This document shows, in pieces, positions 1 to 55,105 of a DNA stretch of 64,000 nt (its first letter is position 1; every line of letters starts with the position of its first letter). Source of the DNA: Mycolicibacterium gadium. GTDB taxonomy: Bacteria > Actinomycetota > Actinomycetes > Mycobacteriales > Mycobacteriaceae. A model generated the notes under the pieces. The model saw only the letters and a list, made by a program, of their open reading frames with translations, was not told the origin of the DNA and did not search any database. The DNA is taken from positions 2,418,001-2,482,000 of the forward strand of contig NZ_AP022608.1 of assembly GCF_010728925.1 (NCBI RefSeq), written 5' to 3'. The translations under genes and the position numbers were made by a program.

Positions 1-464
1 GAGCACAAACCCGATCCGCTCATCCGGATGACCCGGATCCAACGGCACATACGCCGCCGGTCTTCAACACCGCCAAAATCGCCACGACCGCATCCACCGA
101 GCGGTCAAACAACAACGCCACCCGATCACCAGCGCCCACACCCCGACCCACCAACACCGCAGCCAACCGGTCCGAGGCCACATCCAACTCGCCATAGGTC
201 AACGAACGGCCACCACAACACACCGCCACCGCCCCCGGCGCCCGCCCCACCTGCCGGGCAAACAACCCCGGAATCGACACCGCCGAACCCACCGGCCGCA
301 TCAACACCGAACGATTACCCCACCCCTGCAACCGATCCCACTCAACCTCATCCACCACACCCACCGACGACAACCGCCGCCCCGGATCAGCAACCATCAC
401 CTCCAACACCCGACGCAACCGCCCCACCAACACCTCAACACCGGCCACATCAAACACATCAGTG
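1..464 (-). repeat. Near-identical copy of 6359-6824 (C8/A8 junction)
   Basis: Aligned by eye: identical to the module 6 segment except for a base at 29 (c/a), a missing CC at about 57-58, and a base at 351 (t/g). Identity ends sharply at 464 inside the last part of the C domain. The repeat probably extends beyond the left edge. Confidence 0.95.
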
Positions 465-3400
465 CGGAATTCCACCCCACCGCTGATCCCCGCGGGCTCA
501 CCGGTCTCGCTCCAGTGCTCGGCCACGGCGACCGTCAGATCTGTTCGGGCGGTGTGGGTGTCGACCGGCAGCGGTGCGACCTCCACATCACCCAGACGTA
601 GGCCGTCGGCGGAGTCGTTGTCCTGCCAGTTCTGCCACGACAACATCACCTGAACCAGGGGGTGGTGGGTCAGCGATCGGGTCGGGTTGAGCCGGTCGAC
701 AAGCACTTCGAAGGGCACATCTTGGTGTTCATAGGCGGCCAGGCTGCGCTGCCGCACCTGAGCGAGGAGCTCGGCCACTGTGGGGTCACGGGTCAGATCC
801 GACCGCAGCACCAAGGTATTGACGAAGAAGCCCACCAACTCATCCAGCGCGGGGTCCCTGCGTCCGGCGATCGGGAATCCCACCGCCACATCACTGCTGG
901 CGGTGATGTTCGACAACAGAACCGCGAGAGCGGCCTGCATCACCATGAAGCTCGTCGCGTTGTGCTCGCGGGCCACCTCGAGCATCCGCGCCTGCAGCTC
1001 GGCCGGCCACTCCAGCTCCACCCGGCCTCCGCGCTGATCCGCGACAGGCGGATAGGGACGATCGGTGGGAAGGTCGAGACGCTCCGGCATACCGGCCAGG
1101 GCTTCCTCCCAGTAAGCCAGCTGCTCGCCGATGCGACTCTCGGGATCCTGCAACTCACCGAACTGCGCCCGCTGCCAGAGCGTGTAATCGACGTACTGGA
1201 CCGGCAACGGATCCCACTCCGGCGCCTGGCCCGCACACCGACTGGCGTAGGCGATACCCATATCCCGCAGCAGCGGAGTGACCGACAAGCCGTCGGCGGC
1301 GATATGGTGCACCACCGCCACCAGCACGTACTCGTCCTCAGTGATGCGGAAAAGCCTTGCCCGCAAAGGGATTTCGTTGGCCAGGTTGAACGGTTGGCGC
1401 GCCACCTCACCGATGGCCTCACTCAGCCGGCTTTCCGGCCAACCGGTGGCATCGGTGAGTTGCCAACCGAAGTCGGCCTCGTCGGCGGGCACCACCAGCT
1501 GCTGAGGTGACCCCTCGACTGCGGGGAACAGTGTGCGCAGGCTCTCGTGGCGGCTCACCACGTCGGCCAGAGCCGCACCGAGCGCGTCCACATCGGGCCG
1601 ACCACTCAGCCGTAACGCCACCGGGATGTTGTAGACCGGTGAAGGCCCCTGCAGCTGGTCGATGAACCACAACCGGCCCTGGGCGAACGACAACGGAACC
1701 ACCGCAGGGCGCTCGGCGGCGACCAACGGCTCAAGCGCTCCCCCATCGGCACCGATCCGCACTGCCAACTGAGCCACGGTCGGAGCCTCGAACAGAACGC
1801 GTACGGCAAGACCGGCGTTCAGGGTCGTGTTGATCGCGGCGACGACCCGCATCGCTGACAACGAGTCCCCACCCAGGTCGAAGAACGAGGCATCGACTCC
1901 GACCCGCTCCAGACCGAGCACCCGGGCATAGATGCCGACGAGGAGCTCCTCGACCGGATTAGCGGGCGCACGATAGCCCTCGTCGTCCTGGTAGTCGGGC
2001 GCCGGAAGGGCCCGGGTGTCGAGCTTGCCGTTCGGCGTCAACGGCAGCGCGTCGACCACGACCACCGCCGCCGGCACCATGTAGGCCGGCAGCCGCTCGG
2101 CCAGCGCGGCACGAACTCGGGCCGGTTCGGCCGAACCGATGAGATAACCCACGAGACGCTTGTCACCGGGGCGATCCTCGCGGGTCACCACCGCCGCCTG
2201 CTCGACCCCATCGAGTGCGATCAGCGCCGCCTGGATCTCACCCAACTCGATGCGATACCCGCGGACCTTGACCTGCTCGTCGGCACGCCCGAGATGCTGC
2301 AGCTGCCCATCGGCGCGCCAATACACCAGGTCGCCGGTGCGATACATCCGTTGTCCCGGCGCTCCGAACGGGCATGCCATGAAGCGCGACGCCGTCAGCC
2401 CTGCCCGGCCGACGTACCCACAACCCACCCCGGCACCGGCCACGTACAACTCACCGGCCACGCCCGGCGGCACCGGTCGCAACCACTTGTCCAACACGAA
2501 CAGCGCCGCCTCGGGAACCGGCGCGCCGATCGGCACCATGCCCGACCCGGCAGTCAGCGGCGCGCTGATCGACACCACCATCGTGGTCTCGGTAGGGCCG
2601 TAGGCGTTGAGCATCACCCGCCCCGGCGCCCACCGATCCACCACCTCGGGCGGACAGGGCTCGCCGGCCACCACCAACGCCATGGATTCCAGCCCATCCG
2701 GCGACAGAGCCCCCACCGCGGACGGAGTACGGGTCAACACGTCGACCCGTTCGGCGAGCAGGAGCGCATGCAGATCTTCTGGCGATCCCGCCACCGATTC
2801 CGGCACCACCACCACCCGGCCGCCATGCAGCAGCGGACCCCAGGTCTCCCAGATCGACGAGTCGAATCCGTAGGAATGACACTGCGCCCACGACCCCGCG
2901 GTCGGCAGGTACTCGTCAAGTCGTCCCAGCAGCTGGGTGATGTTGCGATGGGTGACAGCGACGCCCTTCGGAACACCCGTCGTGCCCGAGGTGTAGATGA
3001 GGTGGGACACCTCGTTCGGCGCAGGCGGCGTCAACGCGGTGCTGGGCTGGGTGTCGATCATCGGGTCGCTTACATCGATGACCGGCAAGTCATGCTCGCG
3101 CAGCCGGTCCATCAGCGCGGTGGTGGTGATCGCCGCGATCGGTGCCGCGTCGGCCACCATGAATCCGATGCGCGCGTCTGGGTGGGCGGGGTCGATGGGC
3201 AGATAGGCCGCGCCCGTTTTCAGGACCGCCGCAATCGACACGATCGCCTCAGCGGACCGGGAGAACAGCAGCGCCACACACTCGCCCGGACCCGCTCCCC
3301 GGTCAATCAGCAAGTGCGCCAATCGATTCGAAGCCTCATCGAGCTCCCGGTAGGTCATCGAGGAACCCTCACAGGTCACTGCTACCGCGTCCGGCACACG

Positions 3401-54677: not shown

Positions 54678-55105
54678 GCGGCCTTCAGCAGACACGACGT
54701 GAAGGCGTTGTGTTGATTGGAGATCTTCTCGGCTTTGACCTCATCGTCGACGAGGATGCGGCACCCAATGCTGTCGCTGTTGCTCTGCGCCAAGACGCTG
54801 CCCGCGGCCGACGTTTCGGTGATTTCGAATTCCAGCGTCCAAGGCAGACTCGCGCCCTCGATAAAAGTTGGCTCAGAATTCGCGTCGAAGTAACTGATAC
54901 TTGCGACCGAACCGGCAGGCCCGAACACCTCATAGGTCAGATGCTTGGGATTGAAGGGTTTGCTGTCCTCGACCTTCGTGTCGGCGTAGGCGGGACGATT
55001 CTCAGAGCCGAAGATGCCATGCAGGCGCGACACCGTGAACCCCCCGGCGCAGGCGACCACCAGCACCAGGAGCGGGATCCAAAGCCGCTTCAGAACCCTT
55101 AAAAT
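54674..55105 (-). CDS. MmpS family membrane-anchored protein, probably with an ATT start
   Basis: 143 residues if started at the ATT at 55105. MmpS proteins are small, with one N-terminal membrane segment and a periplasmic beta-sandwich, and assist their MmpL partner. With this start the protein opens ILRVLKRLWIPLLVLVV, the normal basic-then-hydrophobic MmpS N-terminus, and GGGAAGGGG stands seven bases upstream. The first conventional start in frame is the GTG at 55066. It would cut away the charged part and half of the membrane segment and has no ribosome site. Later parts fit the family: FTVSRLHGIFGSENRP and two cysteines (SIGCRI, TSCLL) near the end. It overlaps the first mmpL by four bases. 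Confidence 0.88.
   Translation of the reverse strand: MLRVLKRLWIPLLVLVVACAGGFTVSRLHGIFGSENRPAYADTKVEDSKPFNPKHLTYEVFGPAGSVASISYFDANSEPTFIEGASLPWTLEFEITETSAAGSVLAQSNSDSIGCRILVDDEVKAEKISNQHNAFTSCLLKAA

Follow-up and report, generated by a model that had tools for sequence, protein, structure and literature searches.

The window analysed here, a 64,000-nucleotide stretch of Mycolicibacterium gadium DNA (positions 2,418,001-2,482,000 of a single-contig genome of 5,964,999 bp, completeness 99.98%), carries a nonribosomal peptide synthetase (NRPS) locus that we read, with a probability of about 0.7, as a mycobacterial lipooctapeptide pathway of the GL8P type, with a peptide and lipid of its own, a synthetase ending in a condensation-carrier (C-T) unit, and a putative methyl-ester cap added by a membrane methyltransferase resembling Icmt. 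GL8P is a glycosylated lipooctapeptide whose M. abscessus locus, MAB_4689c-4705c, was published in 2025 (PMC11978893). The main new point is the association between synthetases ending in epimerization-condensation-carrier (E-C-T) units and Icmt-like genes, together with the role proposed for it.

The NRPS lies on the minus strand and runs from position 30451 leftwards as four open reading frames (ORFs) in the window and a fifth (o0) that stops at window -4619, i.e., left of the first base. The ORFs, the adjoining MbtH-like gene and the two genes beyond the NRPS stop are as follows.

15716..30451, minus strand: NRPS ORF o4, starter-type C-A1-T-E-C-A2-T-E-C-A3-T-E-C
7974..15719, minus strand: NRPS ORF o3, A4-T-E-C-A5-T-E
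5252..7987, minus strand: NRPS ORF o2, C-A6, stopping within the AMP-binding_C region
20..5236, minus strand: NRPS ORF o1, T6-C-A7-T7-C and the first part of A8, with the frame lost at both ends
window -4619..48 (L002:13381-18048), minus strand: NRPS ORF o0, 1555 aa, rest of A8, T, E and the terminal C-T
30487..30714, minus strand: MbtH-like protein, 75 aa, PF03621
L002:12165-13463: alpha/beta hydrolase, between the NRPS stop and the Icmt-like gene
L002:11455-12177: Icmt-like membrane methyltransferase, 1.2 kb beyond the NRPS stop, Pfam PEMT/ICMT

By motif, the five NRPS ORFs hold eight adenylation (A), nine peptidyl carrier protein (PCP, or T), nine condensation (C), and six epimerization (E) domains, arranged as Cs-A-T-E, four C-A-T-E modules, two C-A-T modules, one C-A-T-E module, and finally a C-T unit without an A domain. 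E domains are found in modules 1-5 and 8, the line ends in E-C-T, and the first C domain has a putative starter role judging from its position. The original prediction of at least eight modules is thus upheld by the eight A domains, in an eight-residue lipopeptide line accompanied by acyl, sugar, methyl, and MmpL export genes. It had also looked to the sequence left of base 1 for the remainder of the line, which proved right: the NRPS continues to window -4619 and closes as E-C-T, with the Icmt-like gene beyond, and an NRPS ending at base 1 is ruled out since o0 extends about 4.6 kb further left. Neither a thioesterase (TE) nor a reductase (R) domain was detected by Pfam in the five ORFs, so release by either was dropped. 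Pfam likewise detected no methyltransferase (N-methylation) domain in these ORFs, as had been predicted; fortuitine-type peptidolipids, by contrast, need such domains, which define that structural type here. The MbtH-like protein gave the single MbtH match in the whole 5,964,999-bp genome, which thus showed no further MbtH of the kind expected in a mycobactin locus. For o4 residues 1-1100, no protein other than its own exceeded 70% identity among the best 120 of 1307 matches, and a protein named M. abscessus PstA reached 49%.

The link to GL8P rests on a collection of 396 genomes of the genus (source genome included), which contains an M. chelonae-like genome, G088 (98.4% identity across 6629 aa with a protein carrying the name M. 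chelonae). Its two NRPSs (8131 and 2718 aa) have E domains at positions 1, 3, 6, and 8 and A-domain codes that fit, in order, the GL8P residues T-A-F-I-Y-L-T-T; the published peptide is TAFIYLTT with D residues at 1, 3, 6, and 8 (PMC11978893). Gene order is the same in G088 and in the window (MbtH, gtf, gtf, sulfotransferase, Pap, mmpL, mmpL, mmpS), with identities of 78% for MbtH, 69% and 65% for the Gtfs, 62% for the sulfotransferase, 58% for Pap, 61% and 66% for the MmpLs, and 62% for MmpS. The locus therefore shares with the GL8P locus, as seen through G088, eight modules, MbtH, two Gtfs, Pap, mmpL-mmpL-mmpS, and a sulfotransferase homologue, and shares with G088 itself the E-C-T end with an adjacent Icmt-like gene. 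Pfam detected no TE in the 2718-aa protein of G088. In contrast, the NRPS studied here has E domains at positions 1-5 and 8 rather than 1, 3, 6, and 8, different residues, and four gene types that set it apart from the GL8P locus, namely a fatty acyl-AMP ligase (FAAL), a Mas-like polyketide synthase (PKS), a NanM-type O-methyltransferase, and a major facilitator superfamily (MFS) transporter. Because codes and E positions differ, the window locus is a relative of GL8P and not GL8P itself; its assignment as a GL8P-type locus with another peptide and these four additional gene types is well supported by the sequence comparisons. The earlier claim of an undescribed kind of pathway accordingly fails, since a homologous octapeptide locus and its product have been published (PMC11978893) and G088 has the same gene order. 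In G088, the sulfotransferase gene adjoins a gene for a Sap/Gap-type lipid-addressing protein (PF11139, L107:6637-7788), whose cluster spans six of ten compared loci without any member from the window. In L127 (G092:C1:4799212-4807314), from a close relative of G088, the terminal C domain is truncated and continues into ABC-transporter-like sequence, and the C-T end seems to have been lost.

The peptide was predicted from A-domain identity over the specificity region, with modules of GL8P (P0041), of the M. avium subsp. paratuberculosis lipopentapeptide L5P (P0074), and of glycopeptidolipids (GPLs) as references; the M. chelonae GPL (G088) was assumed to carry the usual GPL peptide, and the code positions follow the Stachelhaus scheme. 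A2 matches the GPL Phe module of G088 at 86% identity and A4 its GPL Ala module, also at 86%, while A6 and A8 each reach 81% to its GPL Thr module; A5 is nearest to Ala (77%), and A3 is nearest to Thr (71%) with a differing code, pointing to Ser or Thr. The predicted peptide is D-Ala-D-Phe-D-Ser/Thr-D-Ala-D-Ala-L-Thr-X-D-Thr.

Next, we evaluated how generally the C-T end is linked to an Icmt-like gene. Clustering of ORFs from ten loci placed a family of ~224-aa Icmt-like proteins in eight of them, mostly beside the NRPS end; since ORFs were picked greedily, the absence of any family from a locus is weak evidence. A terminal C-T query matched in 249 of the 396 genomes at E 1e-120, and the C-T, Icmt-like, and TE counts each rest on the best 150 of longer lists, the C-T list being ordered by similarity to the terminus of the NRPS studied here and the TE list by similarity to P0074. 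Among the best 150 C-T rows, 128 (from 115 genomes) reach the last PCP, while 22 stop after the C domain. For 87 of the 128 C-T termini, the 5 kb downstream contain a listed Icmt-like gene, which is within 500 bp in 74 of these cases and on the opposite strand in 76. The corresponding counts are 0/22 for internal C domains and 1/150 for listed TE termini, just 70 of these 150 TE rows coming from genomes with a listed Icmt-like row. The sole TE row with such a neighbour is G122:C23:462889-464677, where an open frame of 519 aa contains the TE. Flanks were fetched for 37 of the 41 unmatched C-T termini: 24 had an Icmt-like gene and 13 did not, three of the latter having <5.1 kb of contig left. 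An Icmt-like gene also accompanies the C-T terminus of the genome G102; two termini at contig ends (G336:C45 and G126:C173) were left out of the flank reading, and none of the four Icmt-like matches of G117 lies near its terminus at 3197513. Over listed matches, fetched flanks, and G102, an Icmt-like gene adjoins 112 of the 128 C-T termini, but because flanks were fetched for C-T rows only, the even comparison is 87/128 versus 1/150.

In 29 of 30 loci the terminal C and PCP domains retain their active-site motifs; the remaining locus had been read in the wrong frame. The alpha/beta hydrolase was rejected as a general release enzyme, since none of the 37 searched flanks contained a match to it at E 1e-10. 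A 2026 paper noted, without giving a function, that two mycobacterial genomes have a gene of the Icmt family positioned between genes for PKS and NRPS (PMC13291983); of the proteins named for these organisms, one ends in E-C-T and the other in E-C, with no PCP motif matched.

The Icmt-like protein of this locus scores 33.8 bits (cut-off 24) and 39.3 bits (cut-off 25) against the Pfam ICMT and PEMT models, and a profile of 15 members of its family matches ICMT 4a2n at 2.9e-11. The RHPMY, DEE, and GYxxY positions, which it shares with Icmt (PDB 4a2n), are invariant across these 15 members. Icmt methylates the C-terminal carboxylate of a lipidated peptide. The Icmt-like protein is unlike Icmt in its proposed substrate, an N-acylated nonribosomal peptide, and in scoring 46.2 bits, far under the cut-off of 160, against NCBIfam NF040696, the model for true protein-S-isoprenylcysteine O-methyltransferase. 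A structure model (pLDDT 59.5) gave no Foldseek match at E 0.001, ICMT 5v7p appearing only at E 3.9, and was dropped as evidence in favor of the profile match.

For GL8P, the published residues, sugars, and acyl chains yield the formulas of GL8Pb and GL8Pa as the methyl ester, the acid being one CH2 short; the methyl ester is not named in sections 6, 8, and 12 of the paper's text (PMC11978893). The gene MAB_4689c, which lies beside MAB_4690c and is down-regulated together with it, is called an uncharacterized protein in a second paper (PMC12455991); its position makes it the likely Icmt-like gene. L5P, like the proposed product an N-acylated nonribosomal peptide, also has a C-terminal methyl ester (PMC8103206), although it lacks sugar and its matching synthetase P0074 has five modules and a TE end. 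The linkage to C-T ends and the GL8P formulas suggest that the Icmt-like enzyme makes the C-terminal methyl ester. More generally, in mycobacterial NRPSs ending in E-C-T without TE or R, the terminal C-T may release the acyl-peptide, whose carboxylate would be methyl-esterified as in GL8P by a dedicated membrane enzyme of the Icmt-like type, so far unassigned in these loci; the window locus would then belong to a large group of glyco-lipopeptide pathways that differ in length and sequence and share this cap. We see the odds of this broader proposal as evenly balanced. Alternatively, though less probably, the enzyme may methylate a sugar, a phosphate, or another lipid, with the ester coming from another enzyme or from extraction methanol: the superfamily holds other methyltransferases too, the true Icmt cut-off is distant (46 of 160 bits), and L5P carries its methyl ester even though no gene of this sort adjoins the matching synthetase. 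Against this alternative, the linkage among the listed matches tracks the type of NRPS end (C-T, internal C, or TE), and the R-ended GPL locus of G088, the one such locus read, showed no Icmt-like match across 40 kb.

Several observations weigh against a GL8P-type pathway with a methyl-ester cap. In its paper, the M. abscessus GL8P synthetase is annotated with a TE (PMC11978893). The synthetase matching L5P, P0074, ends in a TE, yet L5P is a methyl ester, and in G337, which matches the TE query at 99%, the only Icmt-like match is far away; either an Icmt-like neighbour gene is not the only route to the ester, or a distant copy serves. Icmt-like matches occur in 341 of the 396 genomes, also away from such loci, i.e., the family is wider than C-T-ended NRPS loci, and for 14 of the 128 C-T termini the sequence that was read contained no Icmt-like gene. 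With respect to the peptide, identity does not separate Ala (71%) from Phe (72%) for A1, whose code is Ala-like, and A7 is nearest to Phe modules (74%) with an unmatched code and is left without a residue. Finally, the NRPS contains two frame breaks.

Two losses of reading frame bring the number of NRPS ORFs to five: one, near 5250, separates o2 from o1 and falls in the AMP-binding_C region of module 6, and the other, near 20-60, separates o1 from o0 and falls in the A domain of module 8. The original prediction had missed the break near 5250. Both breaks fall inside a repeat of ~1.85 kb shared by modules 6 and 8 (98.2% identity over 1854 columns), the module 6 copy of which is the following.

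4984..6824, minus strand: module 6 copy of the repeat, with 98.2% identity to its module 8 counterpart at window -1383 to 464

No other repeat pair longer than 1 kb exceeds 78% identity. Between the copies, blastn counts 14 mismatches and seven gap openings, and MAFFT counts 19 mismatches and five gaps, none of these gaps being a multiple of three. The NRPS may truly be broken twice, in a decaying locus that does not make the full-length peptide, given that the frame is lost in modules 6 and 8 although the genome is a single contig of such high completeness. We consider this unlikely: both breaks lie within the one near-identical repeat in which short length differences cluster, a pattern that suggests consensus error, and the remaining NRPS ORFs and the tailoring genes are all open. 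Consensus errors thus seem likelier than decay, and the product would be made in this strain despite the frame breaks.

Right of the MbtH-like gene, the window holds the following tailoring, lipid, and export genes, with a further group to the left of the NRPS.

31074..32339, minus strand: Gtf-like glycosyltransferase A, GT28/EryCIII-type
32604..33983, minus strand: Gtf-like glycosyltransferase B, GT28/EryCIII-type, real start probably further in
33928..35487, minus strand: MFS transporter, DHA2-type
35869..36936, plus strand: NanM-type sugar O-methyltransferase-like protein, TIGR04371, 48.8 bits (cut-off 44)
37095..38066, minus strand: sulfotransferase-family protein, Pfam 27.4 bits, just above the cut-off of 27
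38413..39777, plus strand: Pap-like HxxxD acyltransferase, Pfam 21.5 bits, just below the cut-off of 23.6
39814..41547, minus strand: FAAL, PRK05850/FadD21-FadD28 type
41827..48168, plus strand: Mas-like PKS, Pks2 type
48839..51784, minus strand: MmpL
51795..54695, minus strand: MmpL
54674..55066, minus strand: MmpS, PF05423
L002:6330-11334 (window -11670 to -6666), left of the NRPS: AT3-SGNH acyltransferase, phthiotriol/Mtf2 (fatty-acid)-type methyltransferase, HSP90

The gene set claimed in the original prediction (MbtH, NRPS, two Gtfs, O-methyltransferase, sulfotransferase, HxxxD acyltransferase, FAAL, Mas-like PKS, mmpS-mmpL-mmpL, and MFS) is present, with Pap just under and the sulfotransferase just over its Pfam cut-off. 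Among the ten compared loci, the AT3-SGNH acyltransferase family is found in five and the phthiotriol/Mtf2-type methyltransferase in three, and an HSP90 gene also adjoins the loci of G102 and G319.

The NanM-type methyltransferase was found in nine of the 396 genomes, source genome included, and the flanks of the other eight were compared. G102 has an intact NRPS (ORFs of 3636 and 6697 aa, eight A domains, E-C-T end) alongside homologues of Pap (67% identity), Gtf (68% and 61%), O-methyltransferase (73%), MbtH (83%), PKS (72%), and FAAL (70% and 68%), as well as a sulfotransferase and two MFS transporters, and G383 has a six-A-domain version that ends in E-C-T as well. In the metagenome-assembled genome G263, PKS, Gtf, O-methyltransferase, and FAAL are present with no NRPS in 100 kb, and the O-methyltransferase homologue (L026, G263:C93:86107-87144) holds an internal TGA; G223, G325, G100, G062, and G392 have the O-methyltransferase without this NRPS in the stretches read. 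It is doubtful that FAAL, Mas-like PKS, and Pap form a separate acylated-sugar lipid system merely adjoining the lipopeptide genes. The PKS does score as Pks2-type and the FAAL as FadD21/28-type, and in G088 and G231 the GL8P-type stretches of 60 kb showed no close homologue of PKS or FAAL. However, PKS, FAAL, and Pap homologues recur with O-methyltransferase, MbtH, and NRPS in G102 and G383, homologues recur with gtf and O-methyltransferase in G263, and Pap is also present in the GL8P-type locus of G088.

An acidic, sulfated product had also been proposed, which we now consider improbable. The sulfotransferase family has matches in 155 of the 396 genomes, and the motif residues G26, T27, K118, R147, and S155 are invariant in 12 of 12 aligned homologues. 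All 14 Foldseek matches of the structure model at E ≤0.001 are sulfotransferases, the model itself being weak (pLDDT 68, TM <0.5). Sulfation is nonetheless unsupported because the GL8P-type locus of G088, an M. chelonae-like genome and not M. abscessus itself, has a 62% homologue, yet the published GL8P formulas lack sulfur (PMC11978893).

Under the proposed GL8P-type pathway, FAAL and the Mas-like PKS would provide a probably methyl-branched acyl chain for the starter C domain or, alternatively, for a sugar via the Pap-like enzyme. The NRPS would then build acyl-D-Ala-D-Phe-D-Ser/Thr-D-Ala-D-Ala-L-Thr-X-D-Thr, the Gtfs and the O-methyltransferase would modify hydroxyl groups, and MmpS-MmpL-MmpL and the MFS transporter would carry the product outwards. 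The line would stop at the C-T unit lacking A, TE, and R, and the released carboxylate would be methyl-esterified by the Icmt-like membrane methyltransferase. C-type GPL loci follow the same MbtH, NRPS, Gtf, and MmpL logic, and A2 and A4 resemble modules of the G088 GPL as noted above, but their synthetase has four modules and an R end that gives alaninol (R motif in G088), unlike the eight modules and C-T end seen here. The serine-containing GPL of M. xenopi is, like the predicted product, a glycosylated lipopeptide with a D-allo-Thr end, but is a tetrapeptide and not an octapeptide (PMC7261415). A four-module E-C-T synthetase in G319 (L129-L130, G319:C1:143371-160428) has codes (Ser/Thr-like, Thr-like, Phe, Thr) that recall this Ser-Ser-Phe-alloThr lipid; G319 was rejected as M. 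xenopi, reaching only 59-67% identity to two named xenopi fragments.

Overall, these results suggest that many mycobacteria hold relatives, with other peptides, of the lipooctapeptide-type loci described in 2025 from the M. abscessus group, and caution that a sulfotransferase gene alone does not justify reading a sulfated product. They also provide a candidate gene for an old question, namely the origin of C-terminal methyl esters in mycobacterial peptidolipids.

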